Shown here piece by piece: positions 19,960 through 26,728 of a stretch of 64,000 bases of DNA (within the stretch, counting starts at the first letter, position 1; each line of letters opens with the position of its first letter). The translations under genes were made by a program, and so were the position numbers. The notes under the pieces are model-generated. The model was given only the letters and a program-made list of their open reading frames with translations, made no database searches and had not been told where the DNA came from. Source of the stretch: Paenibacillus sp. URB8-2 (GTDB lineage: Bacteria; Bacillota; Bacilli; Paenibacillales; Paenibacillaceae); the NCBI RefSeq assembly GCF_013393385.1, contig NZ_AP023239.1, positions 5,332,001 through 5,396,000 of the forward strand. The letters run 5' to 3'.

Positions 19960-20073
19960 GGCTTGCCCTCATTCTTATTCAAATTATGGAGATTCTTTAT
20001 TATATCATACGAAGATTTACAGTTAATAGTTTTGTTAATATGCTATATTTTTATCAAAAAAGGAGGGAGACTC

Positions 20074-20577
20074 ATGCAGATTCATTCGAATATCCTCTCG
20101 CTGAGGAAGACCGAAGAGAAGGATCTGGAATTCGTGCTGGCCGCTGAAAGAAGTGAGGACAACCGGCCGTTTATCGGCCAGTGGACAGCGGATCAGCACC
20201 TCGCTGCGCTGGATGATGCCGGGATGCTGCATCTGATCATCGAGACGGACACGGGGGAGCTGGCGGGGTACATGATCGTAACCGGCCTTGATAACCCTAA
20301 TCTTTCCGTTTGCATCCAGCGCATTGTCATCGAGCGCAAGGGCCGCGGATACGGAAAAGAAATGCTGCCGCTGCTTATCAGCTGGCTTTTTCGCAGCACC
20401 CCGGTTCATCGGCTGTGGCTCGATGTCCGGGAGCATAATGTTCGAGCGCGGCATCTTTATGAAACCGTCGGCTTTGTGTATGAGGGCACACTACGGGACT
20501 GCGTTATGACGGAAAACGGGTTCGAGTCGGAACATATCCTGTCGATCTTACGGCCGGAATACGAGGCGGGACGTTAG
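20074..20577 (+). CDS. GNAT-family N-acetyltransferase
   Basis: 167 residues. The acetyl-CoA loop is present as RKGRGYGKEML, followed by WLDVREHNVRARHLYETVGF, which is typical of RimJ/RimL-like acetyltransferases. The acceptor is unknown. The ATG at 20074 follows AGGAGGG with 8-nt spacing; longer upstream frames have no ribosome site. It is divergent from the LacI regulator. Confidence 0.9.
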   Translation: MQIHSNILSLRKTEEKDLEFVLAAERSEDNRPFIGQWTADQHLAALDDAGMLHLIIETDTGELAGYMIVTGLDNPNLSVCIQRIVIERKGRGYGKEMLPLLISWLFRSTPVHRLWLDVREHNVRARHLYETVGFVYEGTLRDCVMTENGFESEHILSILRPEYEAGR

Positions 20578-20714
20578 CCCGATTGTTCGCGCCCGCGGTG
20601 CCAATCGACTGCCGTATTCTCCCCCGCCGGGGAGATGGGACGGCGTCCGGGCAGGGACAGCGGCGGCCTGCTCCGGCTGCACCGCAGCTGCATTCGCCCG
20701 CGCCGCTTCCGGCG

Positions 20715-21575
20715 TCATTCCCCCGGATGCTCCAGCAGCGTCACGGACACGCCGACGTCCAGCGTGCTGCTGCCTCCGCGATAAACGCCCTGCAGCGGGC
20801 TGACATCGGCGTAATCGCGGCCCGTTCCGACGCGGATGTGATTGTCCAGCGTCTCCACATTATTGGTCGGGTCCAGGCCGACCCAGCCGATGCCAGGCAC
20901 CATCACCTCGACCCAGGCGTGAGTGGCCGCATCGCCCTTAAGCGCCGAATCTTCGCCGACGTATAAATACCCGCTTACATACCGGGCCGGGATGCGCCCT
21001 GCGCGCAGGATGCCGATCATGACATGGGCCAGATCCTGGCACACCCCTTTTTTCAGATCAAAAGCCTGCCGGGCCAACGTATTCACGCTTGTCGCCTCCC
21101 CGCAATAGGTGAACGTTTCGTATACATACTTCATCACCCGTAAAGCGTACTGCACGGGATTGTCCATCTCGCCCAGCCCGCGCTTCACTTCCGACAACTG
21201 CTCCGGGTACAGCAGGGTATAGTCGGTCTCGTTCAGAAAGGACAGATAATGCTGCCGGAATTGCTGGGAATGAAAAATATCCTGCATCCGCTTCGAATAC
21301 TGGATTTCATAGATAAAGGAGCCTCGCTGAATGCTCACGACCGACGTGGTCTTCACTTCCAGCAGATTATGCTTCTCGGGTATAAAAAAAGTCTCCACCT
21401 GATTGCCCCACAGATCGGTATATTCTTGGGTCAGGGAAGCCGGCGTGATCTCCGCCCGGTACATCAGCAGCCGCTGTACTTCATCCGTCAAGGGTTTAAG
21501 CCGGATCGTATTCAAGCTTTGATCGACTTGCGTTTCATAGGTGAACGTATTCGTATGCACAATTTCATAGTTCAT
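20715..21575 (-). CDS. Transglutaminase-like cysteine peptidase family protein
   Basis: 286 residues. An N-terminal bacterial transglutaminase-associated beta domain (about 1-90) precedes the catalytic core. The triad is visible: Cys in KKGVCQDLAHVM, His in ATHAWVEV and Asp in GLDPTNN. No signal peptide, so it is cytoplasmic. Proteins of this type are predicted peptidases or amidases; in other bacteria they are often found with alpha-E and circularly permuted ATP-grasp proteins, which are not in this window. It is followed by 137 bp of GC-rich noncoding DNA. Confidence 0.9.
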   Translation of the reverse strand: MNYEIVHTNTFTYETQVDQSLNTIRLKPLTDEVQRLLMYRAEITPASLTQEYTDLWGNQVETFFIPEKHNLLEVKTTSVVSIQRGSFIYEIQYSKRMQDIFHSQQFRQHYLSFLNETDYTLLYPEQLSEVKRGLGEMDNPVQYALRVMKYVYETFTYCGEATSVNTLARQAFDLKKGVCQDLAHVMIGILRAGRIPARYVSGYLYVGEDSALKGDAATHAWVEVMVPGIGWVGLDPTNNVETLDNHIRVGTGRDYADVSPLQGVYRGGSSTLDVGVSVTLLEHPGE

Positions 21576-21606
21576 CGGACATAACGTCTCCTTTGAGGCA
21601 TTCTGT

Positions 21607-22228
21607 TTAGTTGATCGTAGAATTATTAGAATTCCTTAGTTTTAGGTAATCTAAATGTACATGTCCATCTGTCCATAGTCTCAATCCATCTGAAGACAAA
21701 TCATTTAATATTAAATTACTCAGCACGTATTCCCCGTCATTGATAAATACTTCGACGGCACCCCTGTCCACTAATATTTCTAACTTTATTTTCCCCTCTT
21801 TCGGGTGTACAATCACTCTTTGCGGTCTGTTGAACTCCTCAGCATCAACCTTTATCCTTGAACTTACCCTATTAAACACAAATTCATTAATTGATTTATC
21901 ATAGGTCAGATCTGCATGCTGCCCGTCCCCATCTCTAACAGCAAACCCAAACTTTCCTTCCGTTAAATCTGCGACATCAATTTCGGCCTCAATAGAATAA
22001 GAAAGTCCATGAAAATCTTTAAAAATATTCTCTTGACCCGTGTATATATCTTCCCCTCTTATATCCATTATTGTAAGAAAATTATCAAGAAGATTCCATA
22101 CCGGTTTTTGCACCAGCTTTAATCCGTCAGGTGTTGTTTTTAACCGTATTTCTCTTACAATACTCGCATTTCCATTAAACGTATCCCACGGGAGCTTGCC
22201 TGCGTAATTCCAATTATTCATCCACGAA
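21607..22228 (-). pseudogene. GH32 fructan hydrolase, 3' part (split by IS insertion)
   Basis: Reading on the minus strand from the IS end, the frame encodes SWMNNWNYAGKLPWDTFNG, the conserved GH32 segment after the propeller, followed by the C-terminal beta-sandwich ending DYLKLRNSNNSTIN. It is the continuation of the fragment at 23656-24135. A GTG inside the IS end opens the frame artificially, and no active site is contained here. The DNA is much more AT-rich than its neighbours, which suggests acquired DNA. Confidence 0.88.
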
Positions 22229-22446
22229 TTGAACACTCCCCCACTTAGCTAACACTTGAAGTGGGGGATTCTTGGGTAATCCCTTCTACTGAAGGGAATT
22301 CATATCGATATTTTCTTTCGAAAAATCGTATACCAAGCGATCCCTGCGGTTCCCGCAGTTCTCCTATGGAAAATCTGTACTGATCTTCCCAGAGTTTTAA
22401 GATTATTGCCTTAGCAACATATCTAAAGGAAAGGTAGGATTGATGT
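22229..22446 (-). ncRNA. Predicted omega RNA (reRNA) of the TnpB element
   Basis: The region between the tnpB stop and the right end, read on the minus strand, has the two stable hairpins typical of right-end guide RNA scaffolds and ends exactly at the element boundary. By analogy with ISDra2-type systems the RNA would continue into the flank, taking TTCGTGGATGAATAATTGGA (complement of 22209-22228) as guide. The scaffold probably also overlaps the 3' end of tnpB. Expression is inferred. Confidence 0.6.
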
Positions 22447-23535
22447 TTAAACAGCAAGGCTTTTGATGTTCTGTGCTGCATTATCATCTCGATCATGAAG
22501 GGTATGGCACGATGGACATGTCCATTGCCGCACAGACAATTGCTTTACTTCGGAATGGATATAGCCGCATACATGACACCTTTGGCTCGTTGGGGCGAAT
22601 GTGTCAGCCACCTTAACCGTACGTCCATACCATTCCGCTTTATACGAAAGCTGACGTGCAAATTCACCCCAGGACACATCGGCGATGGATTTGGCCAGCC
22701 GGTGATTTTTGAGCATGTTCGCCACGCTCAGATTTTCGATGCTGATCGTTTGGTTTTCACGAATCAGCTCCGTGGTGAGTTGATGCAAAAAATCATGGCG
22801 GCTGCCCACGATCTTTTCATGGATCCGGGCAACCTTCTGTTTGGCTTTCTGCCAATTGGAGCCCCCTTGGTTACGACGAGCCATGCGGCGTTGCCAAAAT
22901 GCAAGTTTTTGTTCATATTTGCGAAACACTTTGGGATTGGCAACCCGCAACCCATCCGAGCAGACTGCTATTTCCTTGAGTCCAAGGTCAATGCCGATCT
23001 CCTTATCGGTCTGCGGCAGAGGTTTTATTTCCACTTCACAAAGGATGGATACAAAATACTTGCCTGCCGCATTTCGCCGCAGGGTAGCCGAAAGAATGCG
23101 TCCTTCACATGCTCTGGAGTTGGCAAAGCGAAGCCAGCCAAGCTTCGGAAGCTTAAGCCGGTTTCCATCGATTGCAATGTTGTCATTGGTGTATTTGGTG
23201 GTGTAGCTTTGCACAGGATGCTTTCGGCTTTTGAAGCGTGGAGACTGATTTTGTTTCTTGAAGAAACGTTCAAAGCTGTCTGCCACGTTTCGCACCGCCG
23301 ATTGCAAAGCAATGCTATCTACCGATTTCAACCATTCAAATTGCTGTTTGAGTGCAGGAAGCTGTGTGGCACAGGTGTTATAGGACAGCCCTTTGCCTGT
23401 TGCCGCATAGGTTTCGTTCCATTTGACTAAGAAATGATTGAAGACAAAGCGACAACAGCCAAACATTTGATGGATGAGTTGCCGTTGCTTTGGATTGGGA
23501 TAGATACGATATTTATAAGCTTTATGTACCAACAT
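22447..23535 (-). CDS. tnpB: RNA-guided endonuclease TnpB (IS605 OrfB)
   Basis: 362 residues from the ATG at 23535, which has AAAGGAG upstream and a TATAAT in the left end. The RuvC catalytic residues appear intact: Asp183 in GIDLG, Glu267 in ISIENLSV and Asp350 in [11 protein letters not shown]. The zinc ribbon has C320-x2-C323 and C340-x2-C343. The N-terminus ([18 protein letters not shown]) is the usual OrfB start. The family cuts DNA next to a short target-adjacent motif under guidance of an RNA from the element's right end, which helps keep the element after excision. All features suggest an active nuclease. Confidence 0.95.
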
Positions 23536-23655
23536 GCCACACAATCTCCTTTCTTGTAGGATACTTCTATTATAGCACATATGTTCGATTTGGAGCGAAA
23601 AAACCGCCGATTCATCTCCTCCCTATAGAGGAAGGAGTCTTCTTGGCTTTATAAG

Positions 23656-24135
23656 ATAAAGTACCGGAAGTTCCCATTTGTATACGGAGCATCCCAAGTA
23701 ACCCCTGTATAAGAGTCTGCGCCCTATTCCAGCCATTTGACAGGAGTTTCAGCATGAAACTCCCTTCCGTCAAAGTCACCTACAAAGTAACTGGAGCCGG
23801 TTGTTAAACCATAATTAAACCCGTTTCCCCCAATCATCAATACCCATTTTTTATTATCGCTATTGTCATCGACGTTCAGCTGAAAAAGATCAGGACATTC
23901 GATAATTCCAATATCCTGTCTTACAAAAGAAGAAGTATACTCCCAGTCTTTTAAGTTGGAAGATGTATAAAATCCCACTTTATCTCTTTCTGCCAATAGC
24001 ATGACCCACTTTTTGGTTTGTTCATGCCAAATGATTTTGGGATCTCTAAAGTCGGCACTTCCTGTCGGGTTATGCTGGACGATACTATTATATTTAAAGG
24101 AATTTCCGCCATCTGTACTATACCAAAGGTTGTGC
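23656..24135 (-). pseudogene. GH32 fructan hydrolase, middle part (5' truncated, nonsense codon, IS-interrupted)
   Basis: On the minus strand the frame shows NLWYSTDGGNSFKY, the GH32 SADFRDPKIIWHEQ (RDP motif) and GIIECPDLFQL with the acid/base Glu. The WMNDPNG nucleophile region is missing because homology stops near 24135, where unrelated sequence begins. A TAG at 23724-23726 replaces the expected Tyr in WLEYGAD-like sequence; after it the frame continues as GADSYTGVTWDAPY up to the IS. There are thus three separate lesions: lost 5' end, stop codon and IS insertion. Confidence 0.85.
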
Positions 24136-24218
24136 GGGAAAACCGAAGTAAAACGGATAGCCGCTATGAAGTGGAAGTGAAGCTTCTTTCTGAGGAAATA
24201 TGCGATGGGCCAAAATGA
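24135..24218 (+). pseudogene. Possible 3' remnant of another gene
   Basis: On the plus strand a frame ending SRYEVEVKLLSEEICDGPK and a TGA at 24216-24218 stands immediately before a strong terminator. The upstream part of the frame is GH32 antisense. It looks like the tail of a lost plus-strand gene joined to the GH32 fragment. No family is recognised. Confidence 0.35.
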
Positions 24219-24220
24219 AA

Positions 24221-24268
24221 CCGGCCGGCCAAGGATGAACCCCTTGACCGACCGGTTTGTTTGTTTTT
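24221..24268 (+). terminator. Rho-independent terminator
   Basis: CCGGCCGGCCAAGG and CCTTGACCGACCGG arms with a 7-nt loop, followed by TTTGTTTGTTTTT. Confidence 0.85.
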
Positions 24269-24356
24269 GCATATGTGAGGAGCCCCGTAAGATTGTAGAA
24301 ACCTACTTTTAGGACAGCCTCAAAAATGGATCGTACTAAGGTTTCATTAGCGATCT

Positions 24357-25211
24357 CTAGAACGCCGGCACGACAGCAACGCCGTATTTATCCTCGATAA
24401 ACTTTTTGACCTCCGGACTGGTCAGCGCTTCATCCAGCTTCTTGATTTCCTCGCGGTTCTCGTCCCCTTTGCGGACCACCACTATGTTGGCGTAAGGGGA
24501 GTTCGCGTCTTCGCGGAACAGCGCCGTCTTGGGATCGATTTTGGCCTCGAGGACAAGGTTGGTATTGATGATCGCTCCGTCCAGATCGGGCAGCGAACGC
24601 GGCAGCGTGGCGGCATCCGCTTCGACAAACTCCAGGTTATGCGGGTTATCCACGATATCTTTGGGAGTCGCCTCGTAAGTCGTAATACCGTCCTTCAGCT
24701 TGATCAGCCCCTGCTGCTGAAGCAGGACAAGCGCCCGGTATTCGTTGGAAGGATTGTTCGGAATGCCGATTTTCGCGCCGTGCGGGATTTCATCCTTGCT
24801 CTTCAGCTTCTCCGAGTAGAAGCCGATCGGTTCCACATGCACTTTAGCCGTAACTACGAAATCATAGCCCTTCTCCCCTTTAACGGAATCGAGATAAGGA
24901 ACGTGCTGGAAGTAGTTCGCGTCGATCTGCTTCTCTTGCAGCGCAGGGTTAAGCTGTCCGTCATCATCCAGCGTAACGACCTCCAGATTGACGCCTTCTT
25001 CCTTCAGCTTCGGTTTGATGAATTCCAGAATCTCGGCATGCGGCACAGCCGACGCCCCTACCTTGATTGTTACTTCCTTGGGCGCTTCGCTTGCAGCCGT
25101 GCTGGCTTGCGGAGCCGCCGCTTCCCCGTTACCGTTCTGCGATCCGCAGCCGGCCAGAATTCCTGTCGCCACAATGACCGCCGCAAACCATAAGCTTCTT
25201 TTTCTCGCCAT
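24357..25211 (-). CDS. metQ: Methionine ABC transporter, substrate-binding lipoprotein
   Basis: 284 residues. A lipoprotein signal peptide ends with the lipobox LAGC near residue 22, followed by an Ala/Gly-rich linker and an NlpA/MetQ domain (EILEFIKPKLKEEG, QEKQIDANYFQHVPYL, KIGIPNNPSNEYRAL). It would bind D/L-methionine or a related compound outside the cell and pass it to MetI. It is the last gene of metN-metI-metQ. Confidence 0.92.
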   Translation of the reverse strand: MARKRSLWFAAVIVATGILAGCGSQNGNGEAAAPQASTAASEAPKEVTIKVGASAVPHAEILEFIKPKLKEEGVNLEVVTLDDDGQLNPALQEKQIDANYFQHVPYLDSVKGEKGYDFVVTAKVHVEPIGFYSEKLKSKDEIPHGAKIGIPNNPSNEYRALVLLQQQGLIKLKDGITTYEATPKDIVDNPHNLEFVEADAATLPRSLPDLDGAIINTNLVLEAKIDPKTALFREDANSPYANIVVVRKGDENREEIKKLDEALTSPEVKKFIEDKYGVAVVPAF

Positions 25212-25262
25212 CCCAATCCCTGCTTTCTCTGAAATATGTATGTAAAAAAGTATTACTACGCT

Positions 25263-25931
25263 TTAACCGTTCTTGCAGCGTCTCCGGTCAATGGAGCGGG
25301 CGATATAGTCACCGGACCATTGGATAAGCTGCACAATCAAGATGATAAGAAGGACCGTCCCGAGCAGTATGTCGGTGCGGAACCGTTGATAGCCGAAGCG
25401 GATGGCCAGGCTCCCGAGTCCTCCCGCGCCGATGGCTCCTGCCACCGCCGTAAATTCGGTGATGGATATTACAGCGATCGTCATCCCCCGGATCAGAGCG
25501 GGCAGCGCTTCGGGTATAAGCACCTGCAGGATGATGGTGAACGGTCCCGCGCCCACCGATTTGGCTGCTTCGATCTTGCCGTCCTCCACTTCGCGCAGGG
25601 CATTCTCGATAATTCGCCCCAGAAACGGGGCCGCACCGATGGATAAAGACACGATTGCCGCCGTCGGGCCCAGCGATGTGCCCACAATCAGCCGGGATAA
25701 AGGCAGCAGAATCACAATCAGGATGATAAACGGGATCGAGCGCACACCGTTAATTGCGGTGCCGATTACCCGGTTGACTCCGGGAGCGGCGAGGATTCCT
25801 CCCTTCTCCGTAACCACCAGCGTGATCCCGAGCAGCGTGCCCAGAAACAGCGCGAAGACCGACGACCACGCCACCATATACAGCGTCTCCCGCAATCCTT
25901 CCCACAACAATTCGGCCAGATCGTCTCTCAT
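25263..25931 (-). CDS. metI: Methionine ABC transporter, permease
   Basis: 222 residues with five membrane helices, the usual MetI length. The EAA-type loop that contacts the ATPase is at [21 protein letters not shown]. Its ATG overlaps the metN stop in ATGA, so translation is coupled. Exports no substrate itself; it forms the membrane channel of the importer. Confidence 0.92.
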
Positions 25932-26728
25932 CGCAGCACCGCCTCCTTTTCCGCCGGTTCCGGAATGTGTCCATTATGTCCGCTCTTGTAGAAGTCGAAA
26001 ATTCCGGCGAACCGCTTGGCCGTATCGCTCTGCGGGTCTTGAAACAACTGGCGGACGGGAGCGCTCTCGACGATGCGTCCTCCCTCAATTACGGCGGCGC
26101 CGCTGCAAATGTGGCGAAGAACATCCATTTCATGCGTAATCAGCACGATGGTAAGGCCCAGGTTGCGGTTAATATCCCCGAGCAGCTCCAGAATGGAATA
26201 GGTCGTCTGCGGATCGAGCGCCGAGGTCGCTTCGTCCGACAGCAGCACATCCGGCTCTCCGGCCAGCGCCCTGGCTATGCCTACCCGCTGCTTCTGCCCT
26301 CCGCTCAGCTGGGAAGGATAGCTGCCCGCCTTGCCCGTAAGCTTCACCAGCTCCAGAATGTCCCCGACACGCCGCTTCACCTCCGCCTTGGGATACCCTG
26401 CCACCTTCAGCGGAAACGCGACATTTTCAAAGACTGTCTTGGAATCGAACAGATTAAACTGCTGAAAAATCATCCCGATCTTGCGGCGGGCCAGCCGCAG
26501 TTCACGCTCCTTCAGGTCGGTAATAACCGTCTCGCCGATCACAATCTGGCCCGAATCCGGCTCCTCCAGCCGGTTCAGACAGCGGATCAGCGTGGATTTC
26601 CCTGCGCCGCTGAAGCCGATAATGCCGAATATTTCTCCTTTTTCGATATGCAGATTAATATCCCGAAGCGCCGGAACCGTTCCGCTGCGAGTGAAGTAAC
26701 TCTTGTTCAGATTAGTCACGGTGATCAT
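25928..26728 (-). CDS. metN: Methionine ABC transporter, ATP-binding protein (short form)
   Basis: 266 residues from the ATG at 26728. Walker [10 protein letters not shown], signature [15 protein letters not shown] and Walker [14 protein letters not shown] are intact. Classical MetN has about 340 residues with a C-terminal NIL (ACT-like) domain that senses methionine; here only a short tail follows the ATPase, so substrate inhibition through that domain is probably absent. The start was moved in from 26791 because the longer frame runs through the leader terminator. Confidence 0.9.

Follow-up and report, generated by a model that had tools for sequence, protein, structure and literature searches.

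How did a transposable element that carries no transposase gene come to sit inside a host gene, and what would its RNA-guided nuclease do to copies of that gene that lack it? Both questions are raised by a GH32 gene of Paenibacillus sp. URB8-2 that is interrupted by a TnpB element. The window that we analysed is the whole stretch of 64,000 nucleotides around this gene (positions 5332001-5396000 of one 5.58 Mb contig), and all features of the locus described here are read on the minus strand.

The insertion in GH32, its empty sites and its copies

The element spans 22229-23655 (1,427 bp), limits that are fixed by the ends it shares with its copies and with related loci. It lies directly 3′ of TTTAT (23656-23660), which is both the insertion target, or left cleavage site (CL), and the predicted TnpB target-adjacent motif. 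From there it runs through a left end conserved among copies (LE, 23581-23655, up to the first tnpB ATG), a tnpB gene encoding 377 amino acids (22447-23580; an alternative start at residue 16 would give 362) and a right end (RE, 22229-22446) that closes with TCAA (22229-22232), the right cleavage site (CR). Pfam recognizes GH32 domains in both flanking pieces of the host gene, the 3′ part (21607-22228) covering the end of the N domain and the C-terminal domain (PF08244 and PF00251) and the 5′ remnant lying at 23656-24131. Excision of the element restores the GH32 frame, as a preliminary description of this DNA had proposed, and locally the restoration is exact, but the gene is damaged at two further places, by an in-frame stop (23724-23726) and by loss of its N-terminal part upstream of ~24131. 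The insertion is thus one of three lesions.

A search of 100 same-genus genomes (this one included) with the GH32 3′ part as query identified a homologue in six other genomes at 84-92% identity, the other matches among those listed being at most 35% identical. All six relatives are uninterrupted at the insertion site and have the predicted joint, none a different one, and comparison with these empty sites demonstrates that the element was inserted without target-site duplication or base loss. Over 180 nucleotides around the joint the relatives differ from the joined window flanks at 6-18 bases and at none within the 20-nucleotide flank past the right end (22209-22228; TTCGTGGATGAATAATTGGA). 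Read as a guide, as the preliminary description had suggested, this flank would match its predicted target at 20/20 positions in each of the six genes. Five of these sites have TTTAT as the motif; the sixth, that of G049, whose GH32 homologue is truncated too, has TTCAT. Unusual conservation of the target was also considered, and the case for it is weak: across seven GH32 sequences, 35 of 1071 20-nucleotide windows show no variation, the guide window among them, in an alignment where L108, whose GH32 is truncated as well, fits poorly for that reason (224 mismatches of 1090).

The insertion sites of other copies vary in how well they are preserved. The L012 site is uninterrupted in all six relatives, with TTTAT in only two and a 20-nucleotide flank that differs in every one. 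For L010, a contiguous site was found in G049 only, with TTTAT present and 3 of 20 positions mismatched, and in G018 its two flanks lie apart; the L011 site has a near-contiguous match in G049 only, with a joint that is not clear-cut. Given the mismatches at the L012 and L010 sites, full conservation of the target across species holds for the GH32 site but not for the site of every copy. Within the host genome, a search for the motif followed by the first 19 guide bases, allowing up to three mismatches, identified a single occurrence, the right junction of the element itself, where the guide is preceded by TTCAA.

Protein and right-end searches revealed that this genome has three more near-full-length copies (~93% DNA identity; at 1.63, 3.08 and 4.49 Mb) together with one 53% relative, and the right end has 15 whole or partial DNA matches there, the window element counted. 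All four copies in this genome follow directly after TTTAT and end in TTCAA, and their flanks are unrelated. Four same-genus genomes hold 15 near-full-length copies (four here, four in G049, six in G019 and one in G018), a count that leaves a seventh, truncated G019 copy aside (residues 1-340, ~950.4 kb). The element aligns nearly end to end among its copies. TTTAT precedes 14 of the 15, the exception being L137, which is without its first 26 bases, and TTCAA ends all 15. Together with five of the six empty sites, these copies confirm the earlier reading that the left flank ends in TTTAT and the expectation that further copies would share it. The nearest named tnpB relatives are from Paenibacillus; among them is a 92% identical tnpB of P. 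rhizophilus, a genome outside these four, whose copy (L042) has CCTAT in place of TTTAT. Among 31 related loci examined of 64 fetched, P. rhizophilus included, a TTTAT left end is present in 25 and not clear in L042, L046, L053, L067, L091 and L097; the TTCAA end is present in 29, and none was found for L086 and L091.

Further elements were observed alongside these. The 3.08 Mb copy L012 (C1:3083053-3084475) lies right at the beginning of a frame that by eye resembles an acetyltransferase. Eleven left-end pieces (E below 1e-4) occur in the draft genome G099, several of them at contig starts, which suggests that the assembly has collapsed additional and perhaps recent copies. The host genome also carries a second TnpB family with seven near-full-length copies (L033-L038 and L040; ~95%), frames of up to ~470-490 codons (that of L033 is shortened) and a right end in ...AGAGTTCAC. 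One locus, L032, is a solo 64 bp right end of this second family with no tnpB match, and L031 (C1:2753211-2753344) is a right end of the first type without tnpB, lying beside L040 in the opposite orientation.

The code in the ends and candidate transposases

Subterminal imperfect palindromes occur on one strand at both ends of the element, CTCCTTCC...GGGAGGAG in the left end (23616-23637) and the terminal hairpin TCCCCCACTT...AAGTGGGGGA in the right end (22237-22268), the latter supported by folding and by consensus pairs. In IS608 of Helicobacter pylori, tetranucleotides at the foot of such hairpins are described as reading the cleavage sites, with CL TTAC read by the left guide (GL) AAAG and CR TCAA by the right guide (GR) GAAT; the pairs include A+16:T-3 and A+17:T-4, and a changed GL resets the target (PMC5934647). 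We used a pairing rule drawn from the IS608 pairs (C1-G2, C2-G1, C4-G4, the fourth base by inference), which predicts AANA for a TTAT site. The window element has AAGA at the foot of the LE hairpin (23638-23641), a predicted GL that matches TTAT by this rule at the same base-pairing positions as AAAG and TTAC in IS608, and its right pair, GAAT (22268-22271) with TCAA, is identical to that of IS608 in its letters (PMC5934647).

AANA stands before a pyrimidine-rich stem in 38/38 TTTAT left ends, which had been picked by TTTATC and not by AANA, although many of them are near-copies of one another and they are thus not 38 independent cases. The variable position is G in 25, C in 8 and T in 5, so several lineages are represented. 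AANA ranks first of 64 patterns in these left ends, the next pattern reaching 28/38. All 23 right ends tested, themselves found through their GTTCAA end, have GAAT and TCAA. Among elements with other targets, type A (TTTAA) has AAGT one base over in 3/4 and type B (TTGAT) has CAAA two bases over in 3/3. A crude automatic stem finder placed the tetranucleotide within one base in 29/45 ends; it often chose another stem, which accounts for misses and also for a few hits. The fit of the ends to the IS608 code argues that the element is built as a substrate of a Y1 TnpA, with TTTAT set by its own DNA, and judged from these letters it looks like a Y1-TnpA substrate without a TnpA of its own.

No Y1_Tnp match was found in or beside the element. 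The preliminary description had reported no TnpA, and this holds for the element itself but not for the genome, which has 12 Y1_Tnp matches elsewhere: seven IS200-type, four partial or divergent and one of type A. The last belongs to the IS605-type element L016 (C1:2084664-2086141; 2.08 Mb), with a TTTAA target and a TTCAT end; its tnpB is open and its tnpA has an in-frame stop. A transposase that might act in trans, for which a search had been proposed, is thus represented by existing Y1 genes, but the one with a similar left end is broken in this genome. In G019 and G049 the one complete stop-free Y1 match is of type A, the second in each being partial or with a stop. G018 has a stop-free type A, two matches of type B and one fragment, the type B element having a TTGAT target and a TnpB that is a 55-56% relative. 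A Y1 match is present in 9 of the 64 related loci, none of the nine from Paenibacillus.

The left end of the element aligns to the type-A left end with a score of 44, whereas 1000 single-base shuffles of the type-A end reach at most 26. Type-A left ends were not listed in a left-end DNA search with E up to 10, so the evidence for this similarity is the pairwise alignment score. A TnpA that binds a similar hairpin could move the element in trans. Two other candidates were set aside. The IS200-type TnpA, present here in seven near-identical copies, has ends that by eye look unlike those of the element. Shared ancestry with type B agrees with the right end, which is closer to type B (score 35, versus 20 for type A), but not with the left end (14 versus 44). 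The seven IS200-type elements (L018-L024, for example at C1:1514497) each follow immediately on a hairpin with a T-rich stretch after it, an arrangement that would suit insertion at intrinsic terminators (7/7 by eye; the T run is weaker in L021 and L022).

TnpB, its predicted guide RNA and known relatives

Pfam assigns the protein the domains HTH_OrfB_IS605, OrfB_IS605 and Cas12f1-like_TNB. Its RuvC residues D198, E282 and D365, counted from the first ATG, are the D183, E267 and D350 that had earlier been counted from M16, and the window copy keeps them intact, as does each of the 13 aligned copies. The window copy also has its zinc-ribbon cysteines (CHVC from 335 and CPSC from 355), again in agreement with the preliminary description. 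Among solved structures the top match is 9yyg (E 4.1e-110), a nuclease designed by AI; the natural proteins are led by chains 8h1j (E 4.4e-106) and 8bf8 (E 8.9e-106), which we take to be ISDra2 TnpB and which align over residues 16-374.

The last 162 nucleotides of the right end (22229-22390), folded as the predicted omega RNA (reRNA) scaffold, reach -61.6 kcal/mol with a z score of -7.07 against 200 shuffles. A consensus of 20 related right ends has 21 pairs, three of them with two-sided changes, and the fold with this little covariation lends modest support to an omega RNA made from the right end. Rfam reported no omega RNA family above threshold in the region 20000-26000. A sub-threshold match to Ref70, an Enterococcus sRNA, was observed at 22284-22364 (E 0.65; 24.3 bits, the gathering score being 115) and covers the conserved core of the predicted omega RNA; perhaps Ref70 is a TnpB guide RNA in its own right.

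By its sequence features the element is classified as tnpB-only (IS1341-type) within the IS200/IS605 family, an ordinary example of a kind already known. Palindromes at the ends, insertion 3′ of a fixed target and GL/GR-CL/CR pairing are those of the family; a Y1 TnpA within the element is absent, which sets the tnpB-only branch apart, and tnpB stands alone between LE and RE with no remnant of a Y1 transposase at the locus. Elements of Geobacillus are reportedly the subject of a 2023 paper in Nature. The IS1341 group likewise has a single tnpB between LE and RE, encoding 362-489 amino acids (here 362 or 377), and the autonomy of such elements has been called unclear; with 1,427 bp, the window element falls between the lengths given for that group in six other species, 1,252-1,393 bp (10 elements) or 1,512-2,382 bp (8 elements) (PMC9956272). 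ISDra2 of Deinococcus radiodurans is similar in its TnpB, which is alignable over residues 16-374 with RuvC and zinc-ribbon motifs that line up; its guide is drawn from the 3′ flank and its motif equals the insertion target, but unlike the window element it has its own tnpA and a TTGAT target (PMC8612924). IS608 also differs in having its own tnpA, and in its TTAC target (PMC5934647). Solo tnpB elements of Sulfolobus islandicus, an archaeal host, have 5′-TTTAT at the left end as well, whereas SisTnpB1 was tested for cutting with TTTAA (PMC10640517). TTTAT is also given as the TAM in work on ISYmu1 and ISDra2, which were tested there as editing tools, whereas the element described here is a natural insertion (PMC12908284). 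A literature search combining TnpB and Paenibacillus returned no report on such elements, going by titles and the opening lines of abstracts.

Models of movement and persistence

The locus is very probably a tnpB-only element that a Y1 transposase moved in trans and whose TnpB would recut empty GH32 sites. According to this model, a Y1 transposase acting in trans, perhaps of type A, would once have pasted the single-stranded element 3′ of TTTAT in GH32, the foot sequences choosing the sites, with TTAT read by AAGA at the left end and TCAA by GAAT at the right. Transcription and processing of the right end together with the 3′ end of tnpB would yield an omega RNA that terminates in nucleotides taken from the GH32 flank. 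Guided by this RNA, TnpB would cut any site without the element (TTTAT followed by TTCGTGGATGAATAATTGGA), whether the element had been lost there or had never been present, and repair from an occupied copy would restore it. TnpB would spare its own copy because the guide there is preceded by TTCAA, not TTTAT. The predicted recutting of the empty GH32 site, which the preliminary description had already put forward, draws on ISDra2, for which it has been proposed that TnpA excision leaves the TAM beside the flank, TnpB cuts this joint and repair restores the element (PMC8612924); a gene-drive effect on plasmids has also been reported (PMC11870625).

A stranded fossil is an overlapping explanation that differs on present activity: after an old transposition the source of TnpA died, TnpB is unexpressed or useless and the guide match is an insertion scar. 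We regard it as possible but doubtful. Copy-to-copy identity is 91.7-97.3% with nearly star-like relationships, and no near-identical pairs were found among the sampled copies, so no recent movement is visible in them. The stop in the type-A tnpA of this genome and the decay of GH32 itself fit a fossil too, as do the broken tnpB genes among the 15 copies, split in L012 and with a stop in L150, and the stop that L139 has ahead of the second start. Against it, 12/15 copies have tnpB open over all 377 codons and a 13th has it open from the second start, and the gene is constrained.

This constraint was estimated from open copies only, which biases the estimates against stops. Pairwise dN/dS has a median of 0.21 (range 0.12-0.61; 78 pairs among 13 copies kept of 16 considered, window included); L149, L150 and L012 were left out for having no matching frame over 300 amino acids, although L149 is actually open. 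Changes private to one copy, which need not be younger than the insertion, number 41 nonsynonymous and 46 synonymous against an expected 2.49:1 (ratio 0.36, p 2e-6). That count covers 13 copies (L149 in, L139 out) and 372 codons at a transition weight of 4, with four frameless outgroups and eight multi-base codon changes left out. The P. rhizophilus copy taken alone goes the opposite way, with 5 nonsynonymous private changes to 0. Overall, these substitution patterns indicate that TnpB is under purifying selection, single-copy private changes included.

Constraint on private changes (omega-like ratio 0.36) in spite of the missing recent copies led us to consider that TnpA-less TnpB copies are kept functional singly and in place, and the identity of the 20-nucleotide target in six related species led us to consider homing on GH32 alleles. 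The nuclease would then convert empty GH32 alleles arriving by DNA exchange, and movement would occur through the TnpA of another IS605 element with a look-alike left end, TTTAT being set by the passenger's AAGA. We hold this combination to be rather unlikely, and slightly more so since the L012 site retains TTTAT in two of six relatives and the whole target in none.

It is very unlikely that the insertion is ancestral and was precisely lost in six relatives, so that their sites are repaired and not naive. Precise excision does belong to TnpA chemistry (PMC5934647), but this history needs several losses in place of a single gain, unless the host lineage was the first to diverge, and G049, G019 and G018 carry their near-full-length copies at other places. 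Less likely still is a repurposed TnpB that binds without cutting and regulates a gene. TldR-like regulators have lost the RuvC catalytic residues, whereas the D, E and D persist in the window copy and all 13 aligned copies, next to the zinc-ribbon cysteines of the window copy. TldR proteins do exist (PMC13418256) and the solo TnpB of an element without TnpA would suit one, but the flank past the right end differs among copies, as fits a mobile element and not a fixed regulator. Finally, although TTTAT is short and AT-rich, a chance reading of boundaries and motif from a single insertion is refuted by ends that are identical in 14-15 copies with different flanks and by the six empty sites.

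For an ordinary kind of element, the comparative support is unusually good. The natural set of guide, target and motif, with six cross-species empty sites, makes self-site cutting by TnpB directly testable. If functional copies were kept singly and in place, this would bear on both the movement and the persistence of tnpB-only elements. As for mobility, ends that carry the full TnpA base-pairing code suggest a possible answer to how tnpB-only elements move, and the finding that the sole complete stop-free Y1 gene in G049 and G019 belongs to a different IS605 element with a similar left end suggests where that mobility may come from.
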